Both the position numbers and the translations under genes were made by a program. The notes under the pieces are model-generated. The model ran no database searches, was not told where the DNA came from, and saw only the letters and a list, made by a program, of their open reading frames with translations. From Hyalangium gracile (GTDB lineage Bacteria > Myxococcota > Myxococcia > Myxococcales > Myxococcaceae), in contig NZ_JAHXBG010000011.1 of the NCBI RefSeq assembly GCF_020103725.1, positions 62,001 to 126,000 on the forward strand: a stretch of DNA of 64,000 bases. The letters are read 5' to 3'. Of this stretch, positions 2,601 to 52,095 are shown piece by piece. The first letter of the stretch is position 1. Each line of letters starts with the position of its first letter.

Positions 2601-2603
2601 CGG

Positions 2604-11327: not shown

Positions 11328-11334
11328 GAGGCCT

Positions 11335-11775: not shown

Positions 11776-11806
11776 GCGTGTGCTCCTTGAAGAGAGGTGA
11801 GGGCGG

Positions 11807-12973: not shown

Positions 12974-13015
12974 GCCTCGCACCTGCCGACGTGGGGATGA
13001 CCGGGCGTCCGCGTG

Positions 13016-14155: not shown

Positions 14156-14195
14156 GCGTGCTCCTCCGTGTGCTCCTCAGGTTCTCGTTCCGCGC

Positions 14196-15628: not shown

Positions 15629-15747
15629 AGTCTCGAGCGTCCTGTCCAGGTCGTGAAGAATGGCCGCACCCCGTTGTCCCCGACTGGGCCCTGCTTGCTG
15701 CCACGACGAATGCTTGAGCGCTCATGGTCCGTGCGACCGAGCGCTGT

Positions 15748-15760
15748 TGTCAATGTGACA
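15748..15760 (-). promoter_or_regulatory. Candidate promoter/operator element for the eCIS operon
   Basis: The plus-strand bases TGTCAATGTGACA form a 5-3-5 inverted repeat. On the minus strand the same bases contain a perfect TTGACA (15753-15748) about 90 bases before the first operon gene. No good -10 box stands 16-18 bases further on, so this may be a regulator site or an alternative-sigma promoter rather than a housekeeping promoter. Confidence 0.3.
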
Positions 15761-15847
15761 GTTTGGCGGTCGAGTAGGAGGGACTCATCAGGTCGCCTCT
15801 CCGCGCAGCGAAGAGGTGACGTCGCGAGACAGGCGCGAGACCGAGCC

Positions 15848-16798
15848 CTAGGGGGCGAACTCCGCGGGAAGTCCGAAGCGCGGAAAGAGCGTCTGGGTGT
15901 CGAGGAAGGAGTTCACGGCGGTGATGCGGTCGTCCGACAGCTCGAGCACGATCAGCGCCCACGGCTGGTGGCTTCCCCCCGGTCCACCAGGCCGGTACTG
16001 CCCGAACGCGGGGGTGCCGCAGGCCGAGGTCGGCACCAGCCGGGACCCCCGGCAGCCCGAGCCCTTCCCCGACATCCATGCGCGGATCGACTCGTGACCG
16101 CGGAGCCACAGCGAGAAGGGTGGCATCGAGAGGGTCGCGTCCTGGTGGAGCAGCTGGGTGAGCGCGTCCAAGTCGTACCGCTCGAAGGCATGGACGTAGC
16201 GGTTGAGCAGCGTGGACTGGGTGTCGGACAGCGGCGCGCGGGGCTGGCTGAGATCGTGCGTGGCGAGCGTCGCGCGGGCCCGCTGAAGCGCGCTGTTGAC
16301 GGCGGCCACCGACGTGTCGAGGCTGTCCGCGACCTCGGCGGCGGACCAGCCGAGGACCTCGGTCAGGATCAGCACCGCGCGCTGCCGGGGAGGCAGGTGC
16401 TGGAGGGCCGCCACGAACGCGAGGCGGATGCTCTGGCGCAGGATCAGCAGCTCGGACGGATCGGAGTCCGAGGGCAGGGCGTGCGCGTCGGGGATGGGCT
16501 CGATCCAGTGCGAGTGCGGCAGCTGGGTGAGCGGGTCATCGACCGAGCCGACAGGCCCCATCTCCATGGGACGTGCTCGGCGCGAGCGCTCGCTCAGCAT
16601 GTCGAGGCACACCCGGGTGGCGATGCGATAGAGCCAGGTGCGCATGGACGCCCGCTCCTCGAAGCGGTCCATGCTCCTCCACGCACGCACCATCGTCTCC
16701 TGGACGGCGTCGTCAGCCTCGGCGGCCGAGCCCAGCATGCGGTAGCAGTGGCCGGTCAGCGCGGTGCGGTGTTCCTCGAGGTTGTAGTCGGTGGCCAT
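15848..16798 (-). CDS. ECF sigma factor with C-terminal SnoaL-like domain (SigX5/SigG type)
   Basis: 316 residues from ATG 16798. Region 2 (about 10-80) has [20 protein letters not shown] and [18 protein letters not shown]; region 4 (about 130-185) has [20 protein letters not shown] and [16 protein letters not shown]. The C-terminal 130 residues form a SnoaL/NTF2-like domain with the [20 protein letters not shown] and [14 protein letters not shown] motifs typical of TIGR02960-like sigma factors, where the extra domain replaces an anti-sigma factor as the control element. No anti-sigma gene is adjacent. It lies 186 bases upstream of the eCIS operon on the same strand; a regulatory link is possible but unproven. 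Confidence 0.9.
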
Positions 16799-16818
16799 CG
16801 CAGCCCCATGTATCAACT

Positions 16819-16844
16819 CCCCTACCCATTGCGAAGGGTAGGGG
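16819..16844 (-). terminator. Perfect 9-bp hairpin between EF-G and the sigma gene
   Basis: CCCCTACCC at 16819-16827 pairs with GGGTAGGGG at 16836-16844 across an 8-base loop. There is no U tract. It lies just after a second hairpin and about 20 bases before the sigma factor start, so it could either end EF-G transcripts or lie in the sigma gene leader. Confidence 0.45.
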
Positions 16845-16846
16845 CG

Positions 16847-16880
16847 AGGGCCCCGGGACACGGCTGGCTCCCGGGGCCCT
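16847..16880 (-). terminator. Strong hairpin downstream of EF-G
   Basis: AGGGCCCCGGGA (16847-16858) pairs perfectly with TCCCGGGGCCCT (16869-16880), a 12-bp GC stem with a 10-base loop, starting six bases after the EF-G stop codon. It lacks a U run on the minus strand, so termination may be weak or factor-assisted. Confidence 0.6.
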
Positions 16881-16886
16881 GTTCTT

Positions 16887-18995
16887 CTACTGCTGTGCCG
16901 CCACCACCACTGACTCCTGCATCGCGTCAGGCACCGGCTCGTAGGTGGCCAGCCGCAGGGTGGCCATGGCGCGGCCCTGCGTGCGGCCTCGCAGGCTGGT
17001 CACGTAGCCGAAGAGGTGGGCCATGGGCACCTGCGCGGAGACGTTCCGCACCGCTCCATGTCCCTCCATTCCCCGCACACGCCCCCGCCGGGAGGACAGA
17101 TCCCCGAGCACGTCCCCGAGGAACTCCTCCGGCGTGGTGACCTCCACGTCCATCACGGGCTCCAGCAACCGCACGCCCGCGCGCCGCGCCGCCTCCTGGA
17201 AGGCCAGGGAGCCGGCCATGGTGAACGCCTGGGGAGAGGAGTCCCGCACGTGCGTGCTCCCATCCACCAGTCGCACCTCCACGTCCACCACCGGGTAGCC
17301 CGCCAGCACGCCCCGCTGCATGGCGCCCGCCACGCCCTTCTCGATGGCGGGGATGAACTCCTTCGGGATGACGCCGCTGTGCGTGTCATCCACGAAGACG
17401 AGCCCCGAGCCTCGCGGCCCGGGCCCCACCTCCATCACCACGTGGGCGTACTGCCCCGGCCCCCCGGTCTGTCGCACGTGGCGGTACTCCTGGCGGACCT
17501 TCTGGCGCAGCGTCTCGCGGTAGGCCACCTTGGGCTGGCCCACGCGCGCCTCCACGCCGTACTCGGTCCTCAGGCGATCCACCACGATCTCCAGGTGCAG
17601 CTCTCCCATGCCGGACAGCAGCTGCTGCCCGGTCTCCGGGTCCACCTCCACGCGCAGCGAGGGGTCCTCCGCCGCCAGCCGCGTCAGTCCGTCCTCCATC
17701 TTCTGCTGCTCTCCTCGAGAGCGCGCCTCGACGGCCAGCTGGATGACCGGCTCGGGGAAGTGCAGCGACTCCAGCACCACGGGCGCCTCCAGCGAGCACA
17801 GGGTGTCGCCGGTGCGCACGCCGCGCAGGTTCAGCGCCGCGCAGATGTCGCCGGCGTGCACCTCGTCCACCTCCTCGCGCTTGTTGGCATGCATGAACAT
17901 CAGTCGCCCCACGCGCTCGCGGCGCTGTTGGCGGGTGTTGAGCAGGGCCATGCCCGTGCGCAACGTGCCCGAGTACACACGCAGGAAGACGACGCTCCCC
18001 ACGTTCTTGTCGTGCATCAGCTTGAAGACGAGCGCGCACACGGCTTCCTCATCGTTCGCCGGACGGGTGACGAGCACCTGGGTGTCCGGAGTCACGCCCT
18101 CCACCGCCGGCAGGTCCGACGGCGCGGGCAGGTAGTTGACCACTGCGTCCAACAGCATCTGCACACCCTTCTTCTTGAAGGCCGCCCCGCAGAGCACCGG
18201 CACCAGCTTGCGCTGGAGGGTGCCCGAGCGGAGCGCGTGCTCCAGCTCCTCCTCCGTGATGTCCGCCACCTGTCCGTCCACGTACTTTTGCAGCACGGTG
18301 CCATCCACCTCCGCGCACGCCTCGATGAGGCGCTGGCGCAGGGCCTCCGCCTCCGCCCGCAGCGGCTCGGGGATCTCCCGCGCCTGGGAGGGCTCTCCCG
18401 ACGCCTCGTCGAAGAAGAAGGCCCTCATGCGCGGCAGGTCCACGACGCCGCTGAACTCCGTGCCGGCCCCGATGGGCAGCTGCACCGGCACCGGGTTCGC
18501 ATCCAGCCGCTCGCGGATGGACCGCACGCTCATGGCGAAGTCCGCGCCCACCTTGTCCATCTTGTTGAGGAAGGCGATGCGCGGCACGCCGTGCCGGTTG
18601 GCCTGGTGCCACACCGTCTCGGACTGAGGCTCCACGCCCTGGCTGGCGTCGAACACCGCCACCGCCCCATCCAGCACGCGCAGGGAGCGCTCCACCTCGA
18701 TGGTGAAGTCCACGTGTCCCGGCGTGTCCAGGATGTTGATGCGGTGCGGGGTGCCCGCGAAGGGCCCGCGCATCGGCTTCCAGAAGGCGGTGGTGGCCGC
18801 CGAGGTGATGGTGATGCCGCGCTGCTTCTCCTGCACCATCCAGTCCATCTCGGTGGAGCCCGCGTGCACCTCGCCCATGGCGTGGATGCGACCGGTGAAG
18901 AAGAGGATGCGCTCGGTGAGCGTGGTCTTGCCCGCGTCGATGTGGGCCATGATGCCGATGTTGCGGTAGCGGTCGATGCGTGTCGTGCGAGACAT
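16887..18995 (-). CDS. fusA: Translation elongation factor G
   Basis: 702 residues from ATG 18995, normal for EF-G. The GTPase motifs are visible: AHIDAGKTT (17-25), [18 protein letters not shown] and NKMD. Domains II-V follow, including [35 protein letters not shown] of domain IV, and an [20 protein letters not shown] end. It catalyses GTP-driven translocation on the ribosome. The gene stands alone, without rpsL, rpsG or tuf beside it, so it may be one of several EF-G paralogs, as myxobacteria often have; that is inference. A long leader with a candidate small ORF lies upstream and two hairpins lie downstream. Confidence 0.95.
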
Positions 18996-37605: not shown

Positions 37606-37962
37606 CTAGTAGCAGCCCGGCGGGGGATAGATGGCGTTCAGGCAGGTGCCGCCGCCGCCGCCGCCGCCACCGCCGCCGCCACCACCGCACGTGTACCCGT
37701 TCCGCTGCTGGTAGGCACCTCGCTGCACGCCGTACTTGGTGACGGTGCCGTCGCAGTTGCAGTCCTCACGCCCCTGCTCGACGGCGTAGGTGTTGTTGGT
37801 GTACCAGGTGCGCGTCCACGTGCTGGAGCCCGTGCAGGCCCAGAGGAGCGCCTGCTCCTGGGAGTCGAGGGTCTCCTGAGCGGTCTCTTCCTCGGGGACT
37901 CCACCGCAGGCGGTGATGAGCAGGGCGGCGACGCACATCCTTGCTGCGCGCTTCATGAGCAT
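37606..37962 (-). CDS. Small lipoprotein with poly-glycine tract
   Basis: 118 residues from ATG 37962, with GGAGG eight bases upstream. The signal sequence KRAARMCVAALLITAC gives a lipid Cys. The mature part has QEQALLWACTGSSTWTRTWY, then GREDCNCDGTVTKYGVQRGA, a run of 13 glycines and a short Cys-containing tail ending NAIYPPPGCY. The DCNCDG motif could bind a metal. The poly-Gly run is encoded by near-identical GGC/GGT triplets and could vary in length by slippage. The family is unknown; it is an envelope protein by its signal. Confidence 0.78.
   Translation of the reverse strand: MLMKRAARMCVAALLITACGGVPEEETAQETLDSQEQALLWACTGSSTWTRTWYTNNTYAVEQGREDCNCDGTVTKYGVQRGAYQQRNGYTCGGGGGGGGGGGGGTCLNAIYPPPGCY
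37645..37687. repeat. (GCC/ACC)n triplet microsatellite coding poly-Gly
   Basis: A run of GCC triplets interrupted by ACC, read on the minus strand as GGC/GGT glycine codons within the small lipoprotein. In-frame copy-number change would alter linker length without disrupting the protein. Limits are approximate by a few bases. Confidence 0.75.
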
Positions 37963-40075: not shown

Positions 40076-40954
40076 TTACAACAGATCGAACCCCACGCCC
40101 GCCGAGCTCGTCAGGACGAAGGAGCGGTACTGGTTCGAGTCCTCGACCTTGAGATACTCCGCCCCCACGTCCAGCAGGAGGGTGATGCGGCTGGCCGGAG
40201 CCAGGCGCAGGCCGGCCACCGCGCCGCCACCATAGGCGCTCGCGCCCGGCACCGCCGTGCCTCGCAGCGCCAGGCGCGGCTGCACCGTGCCAGCGCCCAG
40301 CAGCAGGCCCACCTCCGCCCCGAAGCCAGGGTTGTCACCCATCAGCACGCGGGCGTTCAGATCCATCGCGCCGAGCCCCACCGTCAGGGCGCCACCCACG
40401 CCGGCTCCCTTGCCCAGCGGATCCACGAAGCCGAAGAGCTCCGGCCGCAGCTGCACCGGCTTCGCCTCCTCGTCCTCGGTGGGAGTGTCCTCGGGCGGGT
40501 TCTTGCGCGCCTCCTCCTGCTCGCGCGCCAGTCGCTCGGCCTCCAGGCGCTGGCGCTCGGCCTCCTGACGCTGGCGCTCTTCCTCCAGGCGCTTGTTCTC
40601 CACCGCCTGGCGCTGCTCCTCCACGCCCTTGCGCGCCTTCTCGGCCAGCGCCACGAAGTCGGGAGGGAAGAGGATGGGGTCCACCTGGAGCGCGGGTGCC
40701 GTCAGCGCCAGCTCCTCGAGCTGGATGCGAGCGGCCTCCTCCGCGCCGGAGGCATGCAGCGCCGCCGCGAGGTACAGCCGCGCCTTGACGCGGTCCTCCT
40801 TGGAGAGCCTGGAAGAGCGCAGCTCCTCCTCGAGGGCCTTGCGCGCCCGCGCATAGTCTCCGCGCTCGTACAGCGCGACACCGCGCAGCTCGGCGTGCGC
40901 TGGCGGCGCCGCGAACAGCACCCAGCCTACGGACAGCAGAACGATCACTCGCAT
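40076..40954 (-). CDS. Periplasmic/outer-membrane protein with TPR-like and coiled-coil regions
   Basis: 292 residues with a signal peptide (MRVIVLLSVGWVLFAAPPAH). Residues about 23-85 are TPR-like (ALYERGDYARARKALEEEL, RLYLAAALHASGAEEAARI). Residues about 105-150 are an E/Q/R-rich coiled coil. The last 110 residues alternate Gly-rich strands (GFGAEVGLLLGAGTVQPRLA) and end in a hydrophobic/aromatic-type strand, suggesting an outer-membrane barrel or beta domain. It starts 14 bases after the kinase gene on the same strand, so the two are probably co-expressed; a functional link is inferred from that only. Confidence 0.8.
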   Translation of the reverse strand: MRVIVLLSVGWVLFAAPPAHAELRGVALYERGDYARARKALEEELRSSRLSKEDRVKARLYLAAALHASGAEEAARIQLEELALTAPALQVDPILFPPDFVALAEKARKGVEEQRQAVENKRLEEERQRQEAERQRLEAERLAREQEEARKNPPEDTPTEDEEAKPVQLRPELFGFVDPLGKGAGVGGALTVGLGAMDLNARVLMGDNPGFGAEVGLLLGAGTVQPRLALRGTAVPGASAYGGGAVAGLRLAPASRITLLLDVGAEYLKVEDSNQYRSFVLTSSAGVGFDLL

Positions 40955-40968
40955 GGAGACTCGACGGC

Positions 40969-42966
40969 TCAGGGACCAGTCACGGGCTGGAACTTCACGT
41001 TGTGCTCCAACGTCGCGCCCGACTTGATGTCGATGGTGGCTTGATAGGGCTGCAGGCTCGGGTTGGAGACGAGCAGCAGCGTGTGCCGGCCCGGGGGCAG
41101 CTCGAGGTCATTGGTGGGAGGCACCCGACCGCGCTCCTTCCCATCCACGTAGATCATCGCCCAGCCGCGGATGTTGATGTGCAGGATGCCCGGCTTCCCG
41201 CTCTCCGTCGCCTTGCCGCTGGTGGGACGTGAGTTGGAGTTGCGGCCCGTCTGGGACATGCCCAGGCGATCCGGGGTCTTCTTCTGCGGAGGCTCGACCA
41301 CGGGCTCGGTCGGCTGAGCGATGCGGAGCGTGCCCGCGTCCTCGGGAGGCTGCGCCGGCGGCTCGCTTGTGGGCGGCACCACCGCCAGCGACGGAGGCGG
41401 CTTCACCTCCTCGGCGGCGGGAGGGGGCTTGATGGGCTCGGGCCTGCTCGGATCAGGCGTCAGCTCGGTGACGGGGACGGGGACGGGAGTCTCCTCGCGG
41501 CCCATGCTCCAGAGGCCCAGGCCAGCGAGCGCCAGCAGCACCACCGCGCCCACGGCGAGCCGCGGCAGGCGGTTTGCGCGAATGGTGGGGACGCGCTCGG
41601 TGCTCGCAGGAGACTGGCGCGTCGGACGGACGGAGAGCTCCTCATCGGCCTCGAGCGACAGCACCGTGTCGCTGCGGGGCGGCGCCGCCGGAGCCGTGAG
41701 CGTCTCGGGCGAGGCCCGCGAGCTCCGCGGCGCGGGCGCACCCTGCGACAGCGCCAGGCGCTCGCTGGTGCTCAGGCTCGGCATCTCGTCGGTGGGCTTC
41801 TCACCCTTCGGGGCCGGCTCCAGGCGCGTGGCGCCCTCGGCCAGCTGCTTGCTGATGGCCTTCAGCTCCCGGCGCACCGCGTCCGCGGAGGCGGGCCGCT
41901 CCGAAGGCGTCTTCGCCAGCAGCCGCAGCACCAGCTTGTCCAGCGCCGGGTGCAGGTCCACATAGGTGGAAGGCGCGGGTGGACGCGACTGCACGTGCTG
42001 GATGGCGATGGCCATGCCCGACGGGCCCTCGAAGGGCAGGCGCCGCGTGAGCATCTCGAAGGCGATCACGCCCACCGCGTACAGGTCCGTGTGCGGCCCC
42101 ACCGCCTGACCGGTGGCCTGCTCCGGCGCCATGTACTCGGGCGTGCCGACGATCATGCTGGCGCGCGTCTGCGGAGTGGTGCCGTGGGGCACCTCGCTGC
42201 GCTTGGCCAGGCCGAAGTCCAGCACCTTCACGCACTCGGCCCCGCTGGAGTCACGCACCACGAAGATGTTGCCCGGCTTGAGGTCGCGGTGGATGACGCC
42301 CGTGGCGTGCGCGGCGGCGAGCGCCCCCAGCAGCTCGTCCATGAGCGCGATGACCTCGAGCTCCAGCATGGGGGCGCGCTGAGCGATGATCTCGTCGAGC
42401 GGCGAGCCCTCCAGGTACTCCATCACCAGGTACTGGCCCACGTGCGGGATGGTGCCGAACCCGAACACGTCGATGATGCCGCGGTGGCGGATGGCGCTGG
42501 CCGCGCGGGCCTCGGCGATCAGATCGCGCGCGCCGCCGCCCTCGGAGAACTCCGGGCGCAGGATCTTGATGGCCACCTTGCGGCCGATGATGGGGTGCTC
42601 GCCCTCGTAGACGATGCCCATGCCGCCCGCGCCGATGCGGCGCTTGACGACGAAGTCTCCGAGCGTCTTGCCCACCAGCACGTCGCGCGACACCGTGGCT
42701 TCCCACGAGCCCTCGTCCACGGACTCCATCTCCTCGACGGGAGCGGGCGTCAGCTGCGGCCTGGGCGCGGCGGCCTTGGCGTTGGCGCGAGGAGCCATCG
42801 ACTCGCGACGCACGGTGGCCTCCTCCCCGAAGGGGTTCTCCGCCACGCCGCGCGCACCGTCTCGGGGACAGACCGCGGTCCCGGGGGGCAGCATGGCTCC
42901 GCACTGAGAGCACTTCATCAGGCCGCGCATCGAGTGATTCATCGCTTTCGGCACCGAGACGGACAT
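40969..42966 (-). CDS. Membrane Ser/Thr protein kinase with zinc-ribbon start and PEGA tail
   Basis: 665 residues from ATG 42966. A zinc ribbon lies at about 16-40 (MKCSQCGAMLPPGTAVCPRD). The kinase domain is about 105-370: GAGGMGIVYEGEHPIIGRKV, the catalytic HRDLKPGNIF, DFG in VKVLDFGLAKRS, and GTPEYMAPEQATG. A Pro/Ser-rich linker follows, then a membrane span near 525-545 (AVGAVVLLALAGLGLW). A periplasmic PEGA domain ends the protein (GWAMIYVDGKERGRVPPTND). It should phosphorylate cytoplasmic targets in response to envelope state; substrates are unknown. Longer starts to 43113 lack homology. The gene heads a likely two-gene unit with 40076-40954. Confidence 0.93.
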   Translation of the reverse strand: MSVSVPKAMNHSMRGLMKCSQCGAMLPPGTAVCPRDGARGVAENPFGEEATVRRESMAPRANAKAAAPRPQLTPAPVEEMESVDEGSWEATVSRDVLVGKTLGDFVVKRRIGAGGMGIVYEGEHPIIGRKVAIKILRPEFSEGGGARDLIAEARAASAIRHRGIIDVFGFGTIPHVGQYLVMEYLEGSPLDEIIAQRAPMLELEVIALMDELLGALAAAHATGVIHRDLKPGNIFVVRDSSGAECVKVLDFGLAKRSEVPHGTTPQTRASMIVGTPEYMAPEQATGQAVGPHTDLYAVGVIAFEMLTRRLPFEGPSGMAIAIQHVQSRPPAPSTYVDLHPALDKLVLRLLAKTPSERPASADAVRRELKAISKQLAEGATRLEPAPKGEKPTDEMPSLSTSERLALSQGAPAPRSSRASPETLTAPAAPPRSDTVLSLEADEELSVRPTRQSPASTERVPTIRANRLPRLAVGAVVLLALAGLGLWSMGREETPVPVPVTELTPDPSRPEPIKPPPAAEEVKPPPSLAVVPPTSEPPAQPPEDAGTLRIAQPTEPVVEPPQKKTPDRLGMSQTGRNSNSRPTSGKATESGKPGILHINIRGWAMIYVDGKERGRVPPTNDLELPPGRHTLLLVSNPSLQPYQATIDIKSGATLEHNVKFQPVTGP

Positions 42967-43303
42967 GGAGGCCCCCAGCCGTTTGGGCTCAGGTCCCACT
43001 GGAATCCGACCCTTCCAGCGGAGCGAAATCTTCCGACGAATATCGCACAGCGTGATCAAGACGAACAGCAGCCCCTCACGATCTTTCCGGCGTGCGAAGT
43101 CTCCGCCCGCCATGCATGCTCGCCTGCTGGTGTCAACGGTTTAGAGCGGACGTGGGAACTAAGTGATGGGTGGTGAACAGAACCCTCCGTGCGGCTCGCT
43201 CTCCCCGGACGGGATCCCGGCGTGAAAAGCCGGTCGCGACCCCACTGTTTGCTGCCCCCAGGACCCACGTAACGGTCCGGGTCCTTGTCAATTTGAACCC
43301 GGA

Positions 43304-43324
43304 AGTTCTCAGTTCTTGAGAACT
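43304..43324. promoter_or_regulatory. Inverted repeat, candidate operator
   Basis: AGTTCTCA (43304-43311) and TGAGAACT (43317-43324) are perfect 8-base arms with a 5-base spacer. The spacing is typical of a dimeric repressor site. It lies between the kinase and the biosynthetic cluster. Confidence 0.4.
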
Positions 43325-43549
43325 CTTCGCTTGCGACGGACATGGGGGCTCCAGTCATGGGCGGCGCCCGATTCCTGATCCCGCGACGCGGTGTGCCAGC
43401 GGCATGTCGTGGATGACCCGAGACGTTGGATCGGGGGCCTTTGGGAGAGCTACCGAGACTGCGGCCGCTCACATCCCTTTACCCCCGGAATTCCATCAGC
43501 GATTTCGTCTTTGTTTACTATTTTTACTAACAGTCCATGTCCATCCGGG

Positions 43550-43569
43550 TATGCTGATTTGTCAGCATA
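43550..43569. promoter_or_regulatory. Inverted repeat upstream of the acyl carrier protein gene
   Basis: TATGCTGA (43550-43557) and TCAGCATA (43562-43569) are perfect 8-base arms around TTTG, 141 bases before the carrier protein start, in the AT-rich section. It is a candidate regulator site or a leader hairpin of the cluster transcript. Confidence 0.45.
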
Positions 43570-43709
43570 TAGGCCCGAATGTGGGCTCAAGTGGCCCTTC
43601 CATGGATTGCGGAGAAGGTCGCATACTCAATGGAAACAGGCCAAACTCTTCTTCAAGCCGTTCCATTTCTTTCGAAGTTTAAAAAATCCAGAATGGGAGG
43701 GAGTCGATC

Positions 43710-44018
43710 ATGAATCAGGGTAGCCGTGAGCAAGAGGTGTTCCAAAGGATCCAGGAGCACCTGAAAGCGGTGGATCCCCAACTGGATCTCAGTGCGATTG
43801 CCCCTGGCGCCTCGCTGAGTCAGCAGCTGGGCCTGGACTCGCTGCGGCTGGCTACCCTGTTTGATCGCATCCGCCAGGACAACGCTGGCATCAACCTGCT
43901 CCCCTGGTTCATGAACGCGGCGCGTCAAGGTGGTGACTCGCTGGAGAGCCTGGTCACCTTCATGGTGAAGGCAGGCGAGCAGCAGCAACAGCAGCAGTCG
44001 CAGCAGCGGGCACCCTGA
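43710..44018 (+). CDS. Acyl carrier protein
   Basis: 102 residues with GGGAGGGAG before ATG 43710. The phosphopantetheine site is GLDSLR, with Ser44 as attachment residue; helices around it fit an ACP (FQRIQEHLKAVDPQLD, LATLFDRIRQD). The C-terminus is a Gln-rich run encoded by CAG/CAA triplets. ACPs carry acyl chains as thioesters. As first gene of a cluster with a fatty acyl-AMP ligase and a type III PKS, it probably carries the fatty starter unit. A 197-base gap separates it from the PKS gene. Confidence 0.88.
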   Translation: MNQGSREQEVFQRIQEHLKAVDPQLDLSAIAPGASLSQQLGLDSLRLATLFDRIRQDNAGINLLPWFMNAARQGGDSLESLVTFMVKAGEQQQQQQSQQRAP

Positions 44019-44215
44019 GTCCGAGAGACTGTACTGCCCGTCTCTGAAGCCCGCGGGTTCGTCTCTCCATGGCCTCGGCTCGGCCCAGCCGGGGGGACTG
44101 CTCCTTCGCACGAACTACTTCCGCCCGATTCCCGCTCGCGAGGAGCGTGACAGTCCGTCCTCGCCGTCGTCTCGGAGTCCTTTCGCTCCCCATCCGGTAT
44201 CCAGAGAGGTCCCCC

Positions 44216-45268
44216 ATGCCCAGCCAGAAGCTGCCCACCGTGCTGAAGATCGAGTCAGCGGCTCCCCCCCAGGTCTACTCCCAGGAGGAGCTGTTCAACA
44301 CCTTCTTCAAGCAGCTGTACGAGAGCATTCCCCAGGCCGAGGAGCTGTTCCGGTCCACGCGCGTCAAGCAGCGGCACCTGTGCTGGGGGCCGCAGGAGGC
44401 GTTCGCCAACGGCTCGCCGCCCACCAGCGAGCGCATGCGGCGCTGGGAGCGCACGGTGCACGAGCTGGGGCTGCAGTCGCTGCCACCGCTGCTGCAGAGC
44501 GTGGATCGCGAGCGCGTGGGCAGCTTCGTGATGGCCAGCTGCACGGGCTACGCGGGGCCCACGCCGGAGATGATGCTGGCGCGCGCGATGGGGCTGCGCA
44601 AGGACCTGCGCCGCACGATGATCGGACACATGGGCTGCTACGCGGCCTTCAACACGCTGAAGGTGGCGGTGGACGCGCTGGCGGCGCGCCCCGATGAGCT
44701 GGTGCTGGTGAACTGCACGGAGCTGTGCGGGCTCCACGTGCGGCCGGAGGTGACCAAGGAGCAGGTCGTGGTCCACTCGCTCTTCGGTGACGCGAGCGCC
44801 TCGCTGCTGCTCTCCAACGAGGAGCCCGGGGCGGGCCCGCAGATCATCCGGACGCACACGGAGACGCACTACGAGACGCACGAGGCGATGACGTGGACGG
44901 TGCTGGATGACGGCTTCCGGATGACGCTGTCGTCGTACGTGCCCTTCATCCTCTCGGAGGCGGTGATCCCGTTCCTGGAGCGGCTGCTGGGGCCCTCGGG
45001 GCTGCGGGTGGAGGACGTGAAGCACTGGGGCATCCACCCGGGCGGGCCGAAGATCGTCGACTTCGTCGCCAGGCGGCTCGCGCTCTCCGAGCAGCAGCAG
45101 CGCGCGTCGTGGGAGGTGCTGGCGAACTACGGCAACTGCTCCTCGTCGACGATCCTGCTCATCCTCAAGAACATCCTCGAGGTGGACCGCCCCAAGCCCG
45201 GCGAGTACGGAGTGTTCATGGCCTTCGGGCCGGGGCTCACCATGGAGTCGATGCTGATCCGCTTCTGA
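44216..45268 (+). CDS. Type III polyketide synthase (chalcone synthase-like)
   Basis: 350 residues from ATG 44216 (GAGAGG upstream). The catalytic triad is visible: Cys141 in IGHMGCYAAFN, His274 in WGIHPGGPKIVD and Asn307 in ANYGNCSSST, plus the AFGPGLTMES loop. Such enzymes extend an acyl starter with malonyl-CoA and cyclise the product to resorcinols, pyrones or related aromatics. With an adjacent ACP and acyl-AMP ligase the starter is probably a fatty acyl-ACP, which would give an alkylresorcinol or alkylpyrone. The exact product is not predictable here. Confidence 0.93.
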   Translation: MPSQKLPTVLKIESAAPPQVYSQEELFNTFFKQLYESIPQAEELFRSTRVKQRHLCWGPQEAFANGSPPTSERMRRWERTVHELGLQSLPPLLQSVDRERVGSFVMASCTGYAGPTPEMMLARAMGLRKDLRRTMIGHMGCYAAFNTLKVAVDALAARPDELVLVNCTELCGLHVRPEVTKEQVVVHSLFGDASASLLLSNEEPGAGPQIIRTHTETHYETHEAMTWTVLDDGFRMTLSSYVPFILSEAVIPFLERLLGPSGLRVEDVKHWGIHPGGPKIVDFVARRLALSEQQQRASWEVLANYGNCSSSTILLILKNILEVDRPKPGEYGVFMAFGPGLTMESMLIRF

Positions 45269-45283
45269 GCGCGGGGACTGCCC

Positions 45284-47086
45284 ATGACGATCTCCAGCCC
45301 TCACCTGATCTCCGGCCCCACGCTCAACTTCGGTCCTGGCATGGGCGTCCACCCCGCGCGACGGCACTTCACGCCGAGCCACACCTTCACTCCGCTCACG
45401 CGCTACACCAGCGTGGCGGACATCCTGATGGAGCGCGCGCGGAGGGATCCGAACCGGGAGACGTTCTTCCTGGTGGACATCGAGGACAAGCTGACCTCGG
45501 TGACCAACGCGGGCATGCTGGCGCTGGCGCAGCAGGCCGCCTCGGCGCTGTCCCGGCGGGGAGTGAAGCGCGGGGATCGCGTCTTCATCTGCTTCGACAC
45601 GGGCCCCGCGCAGCTGTGCGCCTTCTTCGGCTGCAGCCTGCTGGGCGCGGTGCCGGTGATGGCGGAGCCGCCGCTGGGGTTCGCGCGCATGCTGAGCTGG
45701 CAGGAGCGGGCGCGCAAGCTGACGGCGGACGCGGAGGTGAAGGCCTTCATCGTGGAGGAGGGCCTGCGCGAGCTGGCCGAGCCGGTGGCCGCCGAGCGAG
45801 GCGGGCTGCCCATCATGGGGCCCACGGAGCTGATGGAGCCCGGCGAGCCGGTGGACGTGCCCGCGCTGAGGCCGGACGAGCTGGCGTTCATCCAGTTCTC
45901 CTCGGGCACCACGTCGGATGCCAAGGGCGTGATGGTGACGCACGGGGCGCTGATGACGAACGCGACGCGCATCGCCGAGGCGACGCGCACGCAGCCCCAC
46001 CACCTGAACATGGCGTGGCTGCCGCTCTACCACGACATGGGACTGGTGGGGACGCTCATCACCCCGATGATCCGGGATCTGCAGGTGGCGCTGATGCCGC
46101 CGCTGAGCTTCGTGATGAAGCCGCAGCGCTGGCTGTGGGCGATCCACTACTTCAAGGCGGCGCTGAGCCAGGCGCCGAACTTCGCCTACCTCCTGTGCGT
46201 CAACAAGATCCCCGACGAGGAGCTGCGGGGGCTGAACCTGAGCTTCTGGCGCCTGGCCTTCTCGGGGGCCGAGTTCATCGACCACAGGACGCTGGAGAAG
46301 TTCCAGCAGCGCTTCGCGCAGTACGGGTTCCGAGCCACCACGCACTTCCCGGTGTACGGGATGGCGGAGTCCGTGCTGGCCGCCACGTTCCCGGATCCGG
46401 ACGCCGAGCCGTACCTGGACGTCATCTCGCGCGAGCGTCTGTACGAGGACGGCGAGGCCGTCCCGGTAGCGCCGGAGGATCCGAACGCGATGGTGCTGGT
46501 GGGCGTCGGCCGGCCGTTCCCCGGGCACGAGCTGCGGATCGTCGACGCGGACGGAGCGCCGCTTCCGGAGCGCCGTCAGGGGCAGGTGCTGCTCAAGGGG
46601 CCGTCGCTGGCCGCGGGCTACGTGAACCAGCCGAAGCTGACCGCCGAGTCGTTCCGGGACGGCTGGCTGTGGACGGGAGACCTGGGCTACGTGGCGGACG
46701 GAGAGCTCTTCATCTCCGGGCGCATGAAGGAGCTCATCATCAAGGGAGGCCGCAACTACCACCCGTTCGCCTTCGAGACCGCGGCGGCGCAGGTGAAGGG
46801 CTGCCGCGCCGGCAGCGTGGTGGCGTTCGGGGCGCCGGATCCGACTGCTGGCACCGAGCACGTCGTCATCGTCTTCGAGACGAACGTGGAGGATGCGGCC
46901 GAGGTCTCCGCGCTCTGCAAGCAGGTGGAGAAGGCAGTCTACGACGCGACGGGGCTGCGGCCGGATCGGGTGCTGCCGGCTCCGCCCAGGACGCTGCCGA
47001 AGACGAGCAGCGGCAAGCTGCAGCGCGGTCGGGTCCGGGACATGGTGCTGGCCGGCAACCTGCCTTCGGTGCCACCCAAGGAGTGA
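45284..47086 (+). CDS. Fatty acyl-AMP ligase (FAAL)
   Basis: 600 residues, the usual FAAL size. The adenylation motifs are IQFSSGTTSDAKGVMVTHG, the FAAL-type LPLYHDMGLVGTLI, FPVYGMAESVLAATF, a GWLWTGDLGYVADGELFISG block and C-terminal Lys in PKTSSGKLQRG. The family activates fatty acids as acyl-AMP and passes them to an ACP rather than to CoA; absence of CoA use is family knowledge, not seen. It starts 15 bases after the PKS gene and should load the ACP encoded at 43710. Confidence 0.93.
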   Translation: MTISSPHLISGPTLNFGPGMGVHPARRHFTPSHTFTPLTRYTSVADILMERARRDPNRETFFLVDIEDKLTSVTNAGMLALAQQAASALSRRGVKRGDRVFICFDTGPAQLCAFFGCSLLGAVPVMAEPPLGFARMLSWQERARKLTADAEVKAFIVEEGLRELAEPVAAERGGLPIMGPTELMEPGEPVDVPALRPDELAFIQFSSGTTSDAKGVMVTHGALMTNATRIAEATRTQPHHLNMAWLPLYHDMGLVGTLITPMIRDLQVALMPPLSFVMKPQRWLWAIHYFKAALSQAPNFAYLLCVNKIPDEELRGLNLSFWRLAFSGAEFIDHRTLEKFQQRFAQYGFRATTHFPVYGMAESVLAATFPDPDAEPYLDVISRERLYEDGEAVPVAPEDPNAMVLVGVGRPFPGHELRIVDADGAPLPERRQGQVLLKGPSLAAGYVNQPKLTAESFRDGWLWTGDLGYVADGELFISGRMKELIIKGGRNYHPFAFETAAAQVKGCRAGSVVAFGAPDPTAGTEHVVIVFETNVEDAAEVSALCKQVEKAVYDATGLRPDRVLPAPPRTLPKTSSGKLQRGRVRDMVLAGNLPSVPPKE

Positions 47087-47094
47087 CTTCCCAG

Positions 47095-48660
47095 ATGGTA
47101 CCGGTGGCGATCGTGGGGGCGGGCCCGGTGGGCCTCACCCTGGCCAATCTCCTGGGGCTCCGGGGCATCCAGACCGTGGTCCTCGAGCGCAACGCGGGGA
47201 CGGTGGAGGAGGCCCGGGCCGTCAGCCTGGACGACGAGGCGCTGCGCATCCTCGCCGCCACGGGCCTGCTGGACACGCTCTCGGCGGACATGATCCTGGG
47301 GGCGAGGGCCACCTACTACGACAGTGACGGCGGCATCCTGTTCGAGGTCGAGCCGACCCAGCCCGCCTTCGGCTATCCGCTCATCTCCTTGTTCCTGCAG
47401 CCCAGGCTCGAGGCGGGGCTCGCCGAGGGCACCAGGCGCTTCGAGCACGTGCAGGTGAGGTTCCGCCACTCGGTGGATCGCCTCACCCCCGAGGCCGACG
47501 GCGTCGTGCTCGAGGGCTACGACGCGGACCATCGCCGCTTCTCGCTGAAGGCGAGCTACGTGGTCGGCTGTGATGGGGGGCGCAGCACGGTGCGCTCGGA
47601 GACGGGCATCCAGATGGTGGGCTCCACGTACAAGGAGCGCTGGCTGGTGCTGGATGCCGCCGGGTACACGTACGGCGAGCCTCGGGTCCGGTTCTTCTGC
47701 GATCCCGCGCGCCCGACCGTCTCCGTGCCGATACCTCACGGGTGCCACCGCTGGGAGTTCCTGCTCCAGCCCCACGAGACGGATGAGGAGATGCTGGCGC
47801 CGGAGAAGCTCGACGCGCTGCTGCGCCGACACATCGATCCGCGCTCCATCCAGATCCTGCGCAAGGTCGTCTACACGTTCCACGCGCGGCGGGCGGGGCG
47901 CTTCCGCAAGGGCCGGATCCTCCTCGCGGGGGACGCGGCCCACCTCATGCCTCCGTTTGGCGGGCAGGGCATGTGCTCGGGCCTGCGGGATGCGCACAAC
48001 CTGAGCTGGAAGCTGGACGCGGTGCTCCAGGGGCGTGCGTCGGACAAGCTGCTGGACACCTATGAGGCGGAGCGCTCCCGGCACGTGCGCGAGATGACGC
48101 TGGGGTCGACGCTCCTGGGGCAGATCGTGATGGCGCGCAACCGGGCGGGAGTGAGCCTGCGCGACGCCTTCTTCAAGATGCTCTCGCTCAGCCCGGAGAC
48201 CCGGCTCTTCGTGCGTGAGGCGCGCTTCAAGCCCCCGCCGCAGATCCAGGCGGGCCTGCTCTGGCGCCACCTGGAGCGAGGGCCCTGGACCGGGGTGATG
48301 CTCCCCCAGCCACGGGTGCGGACCGCGAGCGGGGAGGTGCTGCTGCTCGATCAGGTGCTGGGACCGGACTTCACGCTCCTGGGGCTGAACGCGGATCCGT
48401 CCTTCGCCCTGCCTGCCCAGCTCCTGGCGCGCTGGACGCGGCTCGCGCTGCGTCAGCTCAGCGTCGTGCGGCCCTCCAGCCGGAGCCAGCTCCGGGCCAA
48501 CGAGGTGGTCGACGTGGATGGCGTGTTCTCCTCGGCGACGGGCGAGAAGGCCTCCGGCTTCTGCCTGCTGCGCCCGGACCGGTACGTCGCCGCGCACTTC
48601 CACGCGGACCAGGCTCCGCTCGTATCGGAGTTCCTCGAGCGCTCCTTCCAGTCCGCCTGA
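47095..48660 (+). CDS. FAD-dependent aromatic monooxygenase (MhpA/PheA type)
   Basis: 521 residues from ATG 47095. FAD motifs are VAIVGAGPVGLTLANLLGLR (N-terminal GxGxxG), GCDGGRSTVRSETG (DG motif) and LLAGDAAHLMPPFGGQGMCS (GD motif); the C-terminal third resembles the thioredoxin-like end of phenol hydroxylases (LRPDRYVAAHF). It hydroxylates aromatic rings with NAD(P)H and O2. In this cluster it probably oxidises the PKS product, for example a resorcinol to a hydroquinone or quinone. It begins nine bases after the ligase. Confidence 0.9.
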   Translation: MVPVAIVGAGPVGLTLANLLGLRGIQTVVLERNAGTVEEARAVSLDDEALRILAATGLLDTLSADMILGARATYYDSDGGILFEVEPTQPAFGYPLISLFLQPRLEAGLAEGTRRFEHVQVRFRHSVDRLTPEADGVVLEGYDADHRRFSLKASYVVGCDGGRSTVRSETGIQMVGSTYKERWLVLDAAGYTYGEPRVRFFCDPARPTVSVPIPHGCHRWEFLLQPHETDEEMLAPEKLDALLRRHIDPRSIQILRKVVYTFHARRAGRFRKGRILLAGDAAHLMPPFGGQGMCSGLRDAHNLSWKLDAVLQGRASDKLLDTYEAERSRHVREMTLGSTLLGQIVMARNRAGVSLRDAFFKMLSLSPETRLFVREARFKPPPQIQAGLLWRHLERGPWTGVMLPQPRVRTASGEVLLLDQVLGPDFTLLGLNADPSFALPAQLLARWTRLALRQLSVVRPSSRSQLRANEVVDVDGVFSSATGEKASGFCLLRPDRYVAAHFHADQAPLVSEFLERSFQSA

Positions 48661-48712
48661 GCTTCTGTTTCGCGCTGCCTGGCGGGCCGCTAGGATGAGC
48701 CGGGGTGCGCGG

Positions 48713-49798
48713 ATGACGGATGCAGACCTTCTGAAGGAAGCGGAGCGGCTCCAGGTGTTGTTGGCGGAGCACGCCGCGAAGCACGATCGAGACACCACCT
48801 TCTCCGAGGAGGGGAGGGAGGCCATCGTCCGGTCGCCGTTGAACACGGCGCTGCTGGATGGCGCCTCCTGGCTCACCTTCGGGCGGATTGTCGCCGCCCT
48901 GTCGCGGGGAGATGCCTCCTTCGGCACGGCGTGGCTGATGCACCAGGGCGCGGCGGCCGCCCTGCGGGCCCTGCCAGAGCCCGCGCTGGTCTCCTCCTTC
49001 GAGGCCGAGTTCCGCAAGGGCGCCTGGTTCGGCAACGCCCTGGGCGAGCCCACCAGCGGCAACCAGTTCCTGTCGCCCCAGCAGCAGGCCCGCCGCGTGG
49101 AGGGAGGCTGGCGCCTCAGCGGGGCCAAGCGCTTCGTCTCGGGAGGCGAGCACGCGAGGTACCTGCTCACCAATGCCCTCTGTGACGGGGTGCCCGGCTT
49201 CTTCCTCATCGACAAGGATGAGTCCATCCGCGTGGAGGAGATCTGGGATCCCATGGGCATGCGCGCCACGCGCAGCCAGCTGATGCACTTCCAGGACACG
49301 CTCCTGCCGGAGTCCCGCCGGCTGCGGTTGGATCCCTCCGCGCCCAACGCCATCGCCGTGGGCCTGCCGTGGATCTCCGTGGGCATCGCCGAGGCGTCCC
49401 TGGACTTCGCCATCCGCTACGCCAAGGAGCGCCGGCTGCCCCCGGAGAACCGGCCCATCGCCGAGCTCCAGTGGGTCCAGTTCTCGGTGGCGGACATGAG
49501 CACCCGCCTGGAGGCCGCGCGCTCGCTGGCCATGCGCTCGGCCACCGCCACCGATCAGCGCGCGCCGGATGCCCCCGTTCTGCAGATGCAGGCCAAGTCC
49601 GTCGCCAACGAGGCGGCCGTGGCCATCAGCACCGCGGCGCTGGAGATCGCCGGAGGCTCGGGCTACCTGCGCAGCCGCCCCATCGAGCGCTACGTCCGGG
49701 ACGCCATGAGCGGGCCGCTGATGGCCTGGTCCTCCGCCGTCGTCCGCGACTTCGTCGGCAAGTCGCTCCTCGGGCTGCTGGGACCGCCTCCGGGCTGA
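48713..49798 (+). CDS. Acyl-CoA dehydrogenase-like flavoprotein
   Basis: 361 residues from ATG 48713; ATG 48695 is an alternative, and neither has a strong ribosome site. Family pattern: FGNALGEPTSGNQFL, GGWRLSGAKRFVSGGEHARY, FLIDKDESIRVEEIWDPMG, ATRSQLMHFQDTLLP and a C-terminal helical bundle (NEAAVAISTAALEIAGGSGY, SRPIERYVRDAMSGPLMAWS). The usual catalytic Glu cannot be placed with confidence. Close relatives include both dehydrogenases and flavin-dependent monooxygenases, so it may desaturate or hydroxylate the acyl chain or the ring. It closes the cluster, in the same direction. Confidence 0.88.
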   Translation: MTDADLLKEAERLQVLLAEHAAKHDRDTTFSEEGREAIVRSPLNTALLDGASWLTFGRIVAALSRGDASFGTAWLMHQGAAAALRALPEPALVSSFEAEFRKGAWFGNALGEPTSGNQFLSPQQQARRVEGGWRLSGAKRFVSGGEHARYLLTNALCDGVPGFFLIDKDESIRVEEIWDPMGMRATRSQLMHFQDTLLPESRRLRLDPSAPNAIAVGLPWISVGIAEASLDFAIRYAKERRLPPENRPIAELQWVQFSVADMSTRLEAARSLAMRSATATDQRAPDAPVLQMQAKSVANEAAVAISTAALEIAGGSGYLRSRPIERYVRDAMSGPLMAWSSAVVRDFVGKSLLGLLGPPPG

Positions 49799-49802
49799 GC
49801 CC

Positions 49803-51158
49803 TCAGGCGCGCGTGACGGGCAGGCGGATGGTGAAGGTGGTGCCCTGGCCGGGCGCGCTCTCGACCTCGATGCGGCCCTGGTGCCGGGCGATGATGCTCT
49901 GGCTGACGGACAGGCCCAGCCCGGTGCCCTGGCCTCGGGGCTTGGTGGTGAAGAAGGGGGTGAAGAGCCGGGAGAGCGTCTCCGGCGCCATGCCCTTGCC
50001 CGTGTCCGCGATGCGCACCACCACCTCGTTGCCCTCGTGCCGGGTGCGGACGCGAATCTCGCCCGTCGTCTCGATGGCCTGGGCCGCGTTGATGAGCAGG
50101 TTGGTGAAGACCTGGGAGAGCTGCGTCGGGTGGCAGCGGATCATCGGCAGCGGACCGAGATCCCGCTCCACCGTGCACTTGTACTTGAGCTCGTTCCACA
50201 CCATGCGCAGCGTGGACTCCAGCTCCGTGTTCACGTCCGCCAGCTGTGCCTCGCCCGAGTCATCCCGAGCGAACATCCTCAGGCTCTGGACGATCTCCTT
50301 GATGCGCCGCGCGCCCTCCATGGACTCCTGGAGCAGGGCGGGCATGTCATCGACGATCGAGGCCGCGTCCTCCTTCTTCCACAGCGCCTCGATCCGGGCG
50401 AGCACGGCCTCCCGGGCCGCCAGAGGCATGGAGCCCTGGGCGACGAGCAGCTCCTGCTGCAGGTGCAGCAGCGGCGTGAGGGCCGAGACGTACTGACAGA
50501 GCGTGCTCAGGTTGCTCAGCACATAGCTCATGGGGTTGCTGACCTCGTGCGCGACGCCGGCGGCCATCTGTCCGATGGAGGCCAGCTTCTCGGCCTGGAT
50601 GAGCTGCATCTGCCGCTCCTCCAGCTCCCGGGTCGTCTGGAGCAGCTTCTCGGTGCGGCTCTGCACCAGCTCCTCCAGGTGCGCGCGGTGGCGCCGCAGC
50701 TCCTCATCCTGCTGGCGCAGCCGCTCCTCTGCCCGCTTGCGCTCGGTGATGTTGCGCACGATGCACACGGCCTCTTCCGGCCCGCTGCGGATGATGCGCG
50801 TCTCGTAGTGCTGGAGCCTGCCCCCTACCTCCAGCTCGTACTCGAAGACCTCCAGCGTGCCCTCGAGGATGGCCCGCCGCAGGCCCGCGAGCATCCGCTC
50901 GATGAGGGCCGCAGGGATGGGCATCTGGCGGATGTTGGTGCCGAGCAGGGCGGCCGGAGGGACCAGCAGCTCCTCGGGGCTGTTGACGATGAAGTCGAGG
51001 TAGGTGCCATCCAGGCTCTGCCGGAAGATGAGATCCGGCAAGGCGTGGAGCAGGGCATTCAGGCGCTCCTCGCTGCGCCGCGAGGCACGCGCGGCCTCCG
51101 TGTCGGCCTCGGCCCCCTCGAGGGAGCCCCGCTCCGCGGTGGTGGGCAGGTTCGACAT
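49803..51158 (-). CDS. Soluble PAS-domain sensor histidine kinase
   Basis: 451 residues. A PAS domain lies at about 28-145 (LNALLHALPDLIFRQSLDGT, YETRIIRSGPEEAVCIVRNI). A coiled coil (about 145-195) leads to the dimerisation region with phospho-His in GVAHEVSNPMSYVL, then the ATPase domain (NLLINAAQAIETTGEIRVRT, ADTGKGMAPETLSRLF, GTGLGLSVSQSIIARH). There is no membrane span, so sensing is cytoplasmic, and no receiver domain or partner regulator is adjacent. It converges on the biosynthetic cluster end, four bases from it. Confidence 0.93.
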   Translation of the reverse strand: MSNLPTTAERGSLEGAEADTEAARASRRSEERLNALLHALPDLIFRQSLDGTYLDFIVNSPEELLVPPAALLGTNIRQMPIPAALIERMLAGLRRAILEGTLEVFEYELEVGGRLQHYETRIIRSGPEEAVCIVRNITERKRAEERLRQQDEELRRHRAHLEELVQSRTEKLLQTTRELEERQMQLIQAEKLASIGQMAAGVAHEVSNPMSYVLSNLSTLCQYVSALTPLLHLQQELLVAQGSMPLAAREAVLARIEALWKKEDAASIVDDMPALLQESMEGARRIKEIVQSLRMFARDDSGEAQLADVNTELESTLRMVWNELKYKCTVERDLGPLPMIRCHPTQLSQVFTNLLINAAQAIETTGEIRVRTRHEGNEVVVRIADTGKGMAPETLSRLFTPFFTTKPRGQGTGLGLSVSQSIIARHQGRIEVESAPGQGTTFTIRLPVTRA

Positions 51159-51215: not shown

Positions 51216-51238
51216 CCTGGGCGAGAACCCCCGGCGTC

Positions 51239-51532
51239 TCAGGACTGCAGTTCGAGCGACAGCGACTGGCCTGCCTCGAACTGGGGGGCCTGGCGCAGCC
51301 GCTCCAGCACCTGCTCGTGGCAGCGCAAGGTGACCATTGGAAGGGATCCCGGCTCGCTCACCCACTTGACCGCGTCCATCAGCCGGTGGGACTGCAAATA
51401 GTTCAGCACCCGCTCACGAAACTGCAGGCTCTCGTTGCGCCCCGCCTCGTAGAGAGCTCGACGATCACGCTGGGGCAAAGGGCGGTACGGCTTCTGCTCT
51501 TCCCGCGGCATGACGATCGCCTCAATCCACAT
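51239..51532 (-). CDS. Small conserved protein, tandem paralog A
   Basis: 97 residues from ATG 51532, with GGAGG nine bases upstream. It reads MWIEAIVMPREE, a basic middle (RALYEAGRNESLQFRERVLN), then VKWVSEPGSLPMVTLRCHEQ and a FEAGQSLSLELQS end. About three quarters of residues match paralog B at 51802-52095. The alternation of predicted strands and helices, ending in a P-V-T-strand plus helix, faintly recalls the I9 protease-propeptide fold, but this is weak. The family is not recognised; no signal peptide, so probably cytoplasmic. Confidence 0.78.
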   Translation of the reverse strand: MWIEAIVMPREEQKPYRPLPQRDRRALYEAGRNESLQFRERVLNYLQSHRLMDAVKWVSEPGSLPMVTLRCHEQVLERLRQAPQFEAGQSLSLELQS

Positions 51533-51776
51533 TCCCTGCACCCTCCGGTTTGCGCATCCGAAAGTAGCAAGGGCCGTCGTGGATGCATCCCGCTCGCGTT
51601 GCATTCACCCGCCGAATGGTTGCGTGCGAACGCCACGAGGGGCCAAATCCCGAGGGGATGGGAGTTCAGGAAAAACCTGCAAGCCTCCGACGAAGGCTCG
51701 TAAGTCCTTGGGCCGACTGGGGTTTCAGGGGGTAGACCGAAAACGCGATTCCGGTCGTTCAAGATGGAAGAGCGAA

Positions 51777-51798
51777 GCCCGCGGACGCCACCGCGGGC
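51777..51798 (-). terminator. Hairpin terminator after paralog B
   Basis: GCCCGCGG (51777-51784) pairs perfectly with CCGCGGGC (51791-51798) over a 6-base loop, three bases beyond the stop. On the minus strand it is followed by TTCGCTCTTCCATCTTG, moderately T-rich. Confidence 0.6.
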
Positions 51799-51801
51799 GG
51801 C

Positions 51802-52095
51802 TCAGGACTGCAGCTCGAGGGAGAGAGACTTGCCTGCCTCGAACTCAGGGGCCTTGCGAAGCCGCTCCAGAACGCGCTCCTGACAGCGCAGCGTGACCAT
51901 GGGAAGCGAACCCGGCTCGCTCACCCACTTGACCGCGTTCATGAGCTGATTGGCCTGCAGGAAGTTGAGCACCGTGGCTCGGAACTCCAGGCTCTCGTCG
52001 CGGCCGGCGTTGTACAGGGCGCGGCGGTCAAGCCGACGCGAGGGGCGGTAGGGCCTGGACTCCTCACGGGGCATGACGATTGCCTCGATCCACAT
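51802..52095 (-). CDS. Small conserved protein, tandem paralog B
   Basis: 97 residues from ATG 52095, with GGAGG seven bases upstream. It has the same length and layout as paralog A: MWIEAIVMPREE, RALYNAGRDESLEFRATVLN, then the invariant block AVKWVSEPGSLPMVTLRC and FEAGKSLSLELQS. Differences cluster in residues 13-60, while the last 35 residues are nearly identical. Own terminator and own leader suggest separate transcription, so the pair is a duplication with independent control rather than an operon. Function unknown. Confidence 0.78.
   Translation of the reverse strand: MWIEAIVMPREESRPYRPSRRLDRRALYNAGRDESLEFRATVLNFLQANQLMNAVKWVSEPGSLPMVTLRCQERVLERLRKAPEFEAGKSLSLELQS

Follow-up and report, generated by a model that had tools for sequence, protein, structure and literature searches.

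A five-gene stretch of Hyalangium gracile with an acyl carrier protein, a type III polyketide synthase and a fatty acyl-AMP ligase: a probable phenolic-lipid operon

Five genes at positions 43710-49798 of a 64,000-nucleotide stretch of DNA from the soil myxobacterium Hyalangium gracile (hereafter the window; G000:C11:62001-126000 in a genome of 11.7 Mb and 81 contigs) probably form a compact phenolic-lipid operon. In this operon a fatty acyl-AMP ligase (FAAL) would load a fatty acyl chain on an acyl carrier protein (ACP), the ACP would feed a type III polyketide synthase (PKS), and a flavin monooxygenase would hydroxylate the ring. The most likely product, by inference, is an alkylresorcinol or alkylresorcylic acid with an added hydroxyl group, or possibly a quinone. 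The interval is filled by five intact open reading frames (ORFs), all on the + strand, and the coordinates given for this cluster in an initial annotation were exact.

43710-44018, + strand: P0001, 102 amino acids (aa), acyl carrier protein of a Pro-Trp-motif subfamily, with a GLDSL motif containing Ser44
44216-45268, + strand: P0002, 350 aa, type III polyketide synthase with Cys141, His274 and Asn307, and Trp227 at the cyclisation position
45284-47086, + strand: P0003, 600 aa, fatty acyl-AMP ligase with the FAAL insertion
47095-48660, + strand: P0004, 521 aa, group A flavin monooxygenase of MhpA type
48713-49798, + strand (alternative start at 48695): P0005, 361 aa, flavoprotein of the acyl-CoA (coenzyme A) dehydrogenase fold without the usual catalytic Glu; resident at this site and perhaps co-transcribed

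P0002 carries the N- and C-terminal Chal_sti_synt domains (PF00195, PF02797) above the Pfam cut-off, and the catalytic triad C141/H274/N307 of a type III PKS is intact. PKS11 and PKS18 were among its best matches of solved structure. Trp227 aligns with Trp230 of PKS11, and a Trp at the position of Trp281 in ArsB has been described as favouring resorcinol formation. The residue is only suggestive of a resorcinol rather than a pyrone, since PKS11, with the same Trp, is an alkylpyrone synthase according to the literature. The use of acyl-ACP has been reported for other type III PKSs, namely ArsB/C and germicidin synthase.

The small protein encoded before the PKS scored 20.6 bits against PF00550 (PP-binding), 0.2 under the cut-off of 20.8. 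Its AlphaFold model is the four-helix bundle of an ACP (pLDDT, the predicted local distance difference test score, of 88.9), with Ser44 at the beginning of the helix 44-57. The nearest folds in the PDB were mostly ACPs; the best E value was 0.04, and no match reached 0.001. With the remaining sequences of alignment A3, P0001 has 26-39% identity; the 13 ACPs aligned there share the motif PWxxxAxxxGxD at helix III. Trp66, Ala70, Gly74 and Asp76 are invariant in these sequences, and Pro65 is nearly so. A search of 145 genomes of the order with the A3 profile, in which at most 35 candidates per genome were scored, gave 18 matches, 15 of them strong (E 2.4e-22 or better) and three weaker ones (E 4e-9 to 2e-7), which belong to a single other genus. 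Fourteen of the 15 strong matches lie directly 5' of a PKS of the P0002 clade. Since 11 of these 14 had been chosen as members of the profile, the finding is that there is almost no similar ACP elsewhere, with one strong match. That match is an orphan ACP in the same genome (L199, G000:C4:256040-256312) whose phosphopantetheine site is apparently degenerate, and the PKS search of the 145 genomes gave no type III PKS match on its contig. The Pro-Trp ACP subfamily thus appears from these distributions to be tied to the P0002 clade, and the pair is seemingly specific.

P0003 scored 187.9 bits against the AMP-binding domain of Pfam, and its best solved relatives are of the FAAL type. After the YGMAE motif it has the FAAL insertion, which makes this region 26-28 residues longer than in L217-L219, three further AMP-ligase ORFs of the genome that are presumed to be of CoA type; the insertion is 18 residues longer than in L214. 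P0003 is therefore likely to be a FAAL that loads a fatty acyl chain on the ACP. The proposal that a fatty starter reaches the PKS through a FAAL and an ACP is supported by this insertion and by the occurrence of strong ACP relatives almost only beside the PKS clade.

The 145 genomes contain 19 other full-length relatives of P0002 (46-57% identity), one of them in the same genome, and an additional broken copy in genome G118. A search of 195 genomes of the phylum at E 1e-75 recovered the same 20 places, that of the window included. The triad of ACP, PKS and FAAL occurs at 13 of the 19 other places, and the remaining six are without ACP or FAAL. Among the best 80 of 554 confirmed matches, the closest PKS is that of Microbispora hainanensis, 59% identical to P0002. 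Two Mycobacterium records and a metagenome-assembled genome (MAG) of the Myxococcota, IP29b_bin.34 (L096), also fall in the clade. Outside the order, a FAAL-like gene lies near the PKS in Microbispora and in the two Mycobacterium records. In the tree, the P0002 clade (support 100/98) stands apart from a second clade (support 100/100), to which the PKS-ACP-FAAL clusters common in myxobacteria and a PKS of Streptomyces globisporus belong. We call this second clade FtpA/SrsA-like, a provisional name, as the tree was built without the sequences of Myxococcus xanthus FtpA and Streptomyces griseus SrsA. The genome of the window also has an FtpA-like PKS, whose sister in the tree is the one from Hyalangium versicolor; its cluster (L034) includes a FAAL.

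Several members of the P0002 clade deserve a separate remark. The paralogue in the same genome (L033, G000:C18:48683-49723) belongs to a second ACP-PKS-FAAL triad, followed by an O-methyltransferase according to Pfam and adjoining what appear by eye to be tryptophan biosynthesis genes. At L052 (G121:C133:8498-9538) the active-site Cys is replaced by Ser. The copy in G118 (L053, G118:C1:551081-552128) is present as two overlapping pieces and is therefore broken or misassembled. A phage or plasmid origin of the cluster was considered and dropped. A search of viral contigs, which finds close relatives only, confirmed none for P0002 or P0005, and the 177 plasmid records that match P0002 are all below 60% identity. 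The top one is 35% identical over 97% of the query, and the others among the ten listed reach up to 44% over 67%.

P0004 scored 223.4 bits against FAD_binding_3 (PF01494) and passes the MhpA equivalog cut-off (NF004831, 557.5 bits against 546). Its neighbours are a FAAL and an ACAD-like gene (ACAD, acyl-CoA dehydrogenase), which is not the context of an mhp catabolic operon. The proteins nearest to it are phenol-hydroxylase-type and polyketide hydroxylases, and ring hydroxylation by P0004 is plausible. The order ACP-PKS-FAAL-monooxygenase recurs in the MAG, where the monooxygenase is 41% identical to P0004. At the loci of the 19 other PKSs of the order no P0004-like gene was found above 100 bits, one locus (L044) leaving its contig on that side; at two of them (L035 and L036) there were only hits of 39-40 bits, which belong to a neighbouring FtpA-like cluster. 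The best relatives of P0004 in the order, ten after its own entry, are 40-44% identical and lie on other contigs than the listed type III PKSs or about 4 Mb from them.

In the pathway that we propose, P0003 would convert a free long-chain fatty acid into the acyl-AMP and load it on P0001. P0002 would then take the acyl group from P0001, add malonyl units, probably three, and close the ring by aldol condensation to give an alkylresorcylic acid or an alkylresorcinol. P0004 would hydroxylate the ring, and oxidation of its product may yield a hydroxy-alkylquinone. P0005, an older gene of the site that is perhaps now in the same operon, could be a ring or chain oxygenase, a recruited neighbour or a bystander.

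Several observations weigh against this pathway. Besides the ambiguity of Trp227, the tunnel of PKS18 is only partly kept: five of its eight listed residues were mapped, and only Cys205 and His221 are retained (Cys171 and His187 in P0002), while Ser143, Asn208 and Ala209 of PKS18 correspond to Cys109, His174 and Val175. P0002 is under every NCBIfam cut-off among the hits shown, and so is P0003, the best score of which was 404.6 bits against 600. A P0004-like monooxygenase was seen beside only one PKS of the clade outside the window, that of the MAG. Finally, the gap of 197 bp between the ACP and PKS genes is wider than in most relatives; in 10 of 13 related triads the two genes overlap by 4 bp in our own gene calls. 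The gaps that follow, from P0002 to P0005, are 15, 8 and 52 bp.

The ring closure itself could be of another kind. P0002 may lactonise its product to an alkylpyrone, with P0004 oxidising the pyrone or the chain. Alkylpyrones have been reported from a myxobacterial type III PKS cluster (BGC0001831), and the example of PKS11 again applies here. The paralogue L033 has Leu at the position of Trp227, which can be counted on the same side. Trp227 of P0002 and the phenol-hydroxylase type of P0004, however, point to a phenolic ring, and we regard the pyrone as rather unlikely. Sequence by itself does not distinguish between an alkylresorcinol, a pyrone and a quinone. It is far less probable that P0002 is DpgA-like and uses malonyl-CoA alone, with the FAAL and the ACP serving another pathway; we consider this very improbable. 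DpgA (NF042429) is indeed the best NCBIfam match of P0002, but at 173.5 bits it is so far below the cut-off of 425 that identity with DpgA was dropped. The tie between the ACP subfamily and the PKS clade also speaks against it, and no DpgB-D-like gene turned up in the Pfam scan of 17 window proteins.

The part of the last gene is more difficult to define. P0005 matches Acyl-CoA_dh_1, Acyl-CoA_dh_2 and Acyl-CoA_dh_M above the Pfam cut-off, and its model has the fold of acyl-CoA dehydrogenases (Foldseek E 5.7e-16 to 1ws9). Monooxygenases of the ACAD fold (5z8t, XiaF, TdsC) were also among the best Foldseek matches. In all of the 20 aligned sequences, the Glu of the GEGT site, which we take to be the catalytic one of acyl-CoA dehydrogenases, is lost and the site reads MAWS. 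Seven other ACADs of the genome, in the other half of the tree, are also without Glu at that column. There is no Glu either at the position that we took for the alternative site, presumably that of isovaleryl-CoA dehydrogenase, in an alignment without such an enzyme to fix the position. A classical acyl-CoA dehydrogenase is therefore disfavoured for P0005 by the missing Glu, a lack that the seven ACADs share, so that the loss of dehydrogenation is not proved. The initial annotation had spoken of two flavin oxidases that hydroxylate and oxidise ring or chain. This fits P0004, for which ring hydroxylation is plausible and the four-gene order recurs in one MAG. P0005 has the ACAD fold without the usual catalytic Glu, and the idea that it is a dehydrogenase specific to the cluster could not be upheld.

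Its distribution also differs from that of the other genes. Homologues of P0005 were found in 21 other genomes of the 145 (E 1e-40), the full-length ones being 75-84% identical. At the 19 places examined no P0002-like gene lies within about 10 kb, contig ends allowing, and the remaining two genomes have no PKS of the clade. In five of six congeners (G077-G081) the ACAD-like gene and the histidine kinase stand together without the ACP-PKS-FAAL-monooxygenase genes, and their DNA ceases to resemble the window 1-9 bp upstream of the start of the ACAD-like gene. In G082, the sixth, just 166 bp separate the stretches that match window positions 40078-43106 and 51231-51998. The whole block from the ACP to the histidine kinase is therefore absent there, and the ACAD-like gene is on another contig. 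These comparisons do not support the claim that the ACAD-like gene is a distinctive gene of the cluster; P0005 is resident at this site in five of six congeners, and the pathway may have acquired its last oxidation gene locally. That it is an unrelated neighbour, and that the cluster consists of the ACP, PKS, FAAL and monooxygenase alone, has somewhat less than an even chance in our judgement. Against this stand its position on the same strand, 52 bp after P0004, and a scan for sigma-70 promoters at 43050-49900 that gave no promoter-like site, a weak test with 0.4 expected by chance. Co-transcription of P0005 with the upstream genes is perhaps suggested by this arrangement.

Two further observations connect ACAD-like proteins with acyl carriers and ligases, and they too argue against a mere neighbour. 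First, an ORF of 501 aa in Microbispora (L094, 6773-8278), situated in the same cluster as the nearest PKS relative among the matches listed, contains a Pro-Trp-type ACP fused in frame to an ACAD-fold domain that is also without the Glu. Second, a FAAL-like AMP-ligase (33-35% identical to P0003) occurs in the run of the ACAD-like gene in four congeners, directly before it in three and with two genes between in the fourth. At the locus L092 (G077, 9527-17412, - strand) one run comprises the P0005 homologue, another ACAD, a class-III aminotransferase and an AMP-ligase with a C-terminal PP-binding domain. In lipopeptide clusters, FAAL-ACAD-ACP sets are believed to tailor acyl chains, and flavoproteins of this kind, like HxcO and HcmO, are believed to work on chains bound to a carrier. 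These facts could mean that the product has an oxidised tail and that the ring is made last. This is unlikely, however. The missing Glu makes alpha,beta-dehydrogenation by P0005 doubtful, though the seven ACADs lack it too, and P0004 has its nearest matches among phenol-hydroxylase-type and polyketide hydroxylases. The MAG cluster, with its related monooxygenase, gave no ACAD-like hit above 80 bits. The Microbispora domain was not retained as an orthologue of P0005. Among the ACADs of the Hyalangium genome that were compared, P0005 is its best match (125 against 110 bits), but the two are 30% identical and the tree places the domain with three other proteins of that genome (support 93/80). The group formed by P0005, the Microbispora domain and these three proteins, all without the GEGT Glu, has a support of 98/93; two of the three were tested and are HsaA-like. 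It is quite unlikely that the Pro-Trp ACP both donates the acyl group to the PKSs of its own clade and is a platform on which a Glu-less ACAD-fold protein oxidises the chain before the ring is formed.

The preferred pathway, with ring hydroxylation by P0004, can be compared with described clusters. The involvement of a FAAL with a type III PKS has been published for FtpA of M. xanthus, which makes an alkylresorcylic acid (Hayashi 2011), and a citing paper states that M. xanthus oxidises the FtpA product to alkylquinones. The alkylpyrone cluster BGC0001831 (Hug 2019) may be the same locus. Like the FtpA cluster, the cluster described here is myxobacterial and combines a FAAL with a type III PKS; it contains FAAL, ACP and PKS together. 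The M. xanthus cluster presumably contains an ACP as well. A flavoprotein follows the FAAL in many FtpA-like clusters, as it does here. An SrsC-like flavoprotein, our label for the gene beside the PKS of S. globisporus (L148), lies within 5 kb of at least 43 of 66 FtpA/SrsA-like PKS places, and a FAAL is near at least 24. These counts are lower bounds owing to contig ends, and some loci repeat one genome. In the same comparison, the 41 places labelled 'cladeA' were assigned by their higher score with P0002, and some of them are distant ones that fall outside the clade of the tree. No SrsC-like gene was found within 5 kb of the FtpA-like cluster of the genome of the window or of those at L113 and L122. 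In S. griseus, srsABC encodes a PKS, a methyltransferase and a monooxygenase, and srsC is named in a paper of 2021 as the one other stand-alone hydroxylase known next to a type III PKS. The cluster described here shares with srsABC a type III PKS and a flavin hydroxylase. It has no methyltransferase, in contrast, and has a hydroxylase of another family together with a FAAL and an ACP.

The departure from known phenolic-lipid logic that had been claimed for the cluster is therefore not supported: its logic is that of the FtpA type with an SrsC-type step. That the FAAL loads the ACP and that acyl-ACP feeds the PKS is likely here, and the idea was already published for FtpA. The components nevertheless differ. 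P0002 is 30-32% identical to the five aligned FtpA-like PKSs and lies in the other clade, P0001 is of another ACP subfamily, and P0004 is MhpA-type rather than SrsC-like, scoring about 50 bits at most with SrsC-like genes. Because of its other PKS clade, ACP subfamily and monooxygenase family, the cluster is a member of neither the FtpA nor the srs type.

According to PMC12766979, the alkylpyrone clusters of Myxococcota are conserved, and the one of Archangium has undergone a duplication, which presumably corresponds to the P0002 clade. The Archangium-type ACP-PKS-FAAL clusters (L037, L041, L045 and similar ones) share the ACP subfamily, PKS clade and gene order of the cluster described here. 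Unlike it, they are followed by small secreted metalloprotease-like proteins (by eye), contain no MhpA-type monooxygenase, and are preceded by an O-methyltransferase, a UbiA protein with a HAD part and an FAD_binding_4 protein (Pfam on L045). Further genes ahead of them, identified by eye, are those of a short-chain dehydrogenase and a chemoreceptor-like protein. The MAG cluster differs in the Methyltransf_11-type methyltransferase that follows it. The cluster of M. hainanensis DSM 45428 (L094) resembles the present one in its PKS, a FAAL-like ligase, the Pro-Trp-type ACP and an ACAD-fold domain. It differs in the fusion of the last two, in a class-III aminotransferase (Pfam), in methyltransferase, carboxylase and MMPL-like genes (by eye or tblastn), and in giving no hit for an MhpA-type monooxygenase. 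No published description of the exact five-gene set was found in searches of open-licence PMC papers.

The cluster is bounded by two kinase genes on the opposite strand.

40969-43113, - strand: Ser/Thr protein kinase, left flank
49803-51158, - strand: histidine kinase, right flank, which also adjoins the ACAD-like gene in five congeners

The absence of a nearby methyltransferase, noted initially, holds as far as it was tested: none was found by Pfam in 17 of the 19 genes called at 36823-60204, those at 37606-37938 and 51802-52095 lying outside the scan. Rfam and tRNA scans of the window found nothing. At 1-15628 a run of genes on the - strand resembles by eye a phage-tail-like contractile injection system; the protein at 13016-14155 has a sheath-like start, MPDYKSPGVYVEQ.

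These comparisons suggest that type III PKSs supplied by ACPs are found in two clades or more, each with its own kind of carrier protein, in Myxococcota and Actinomycetota. A review of 2016 treats the recognition of acyl-ACP as an unsettled question for germicidin synthase. Because it is small and seemingly specific, the ACP-PKS pair of this clade could reveal how a type III PKS recognises acyl-ACP.

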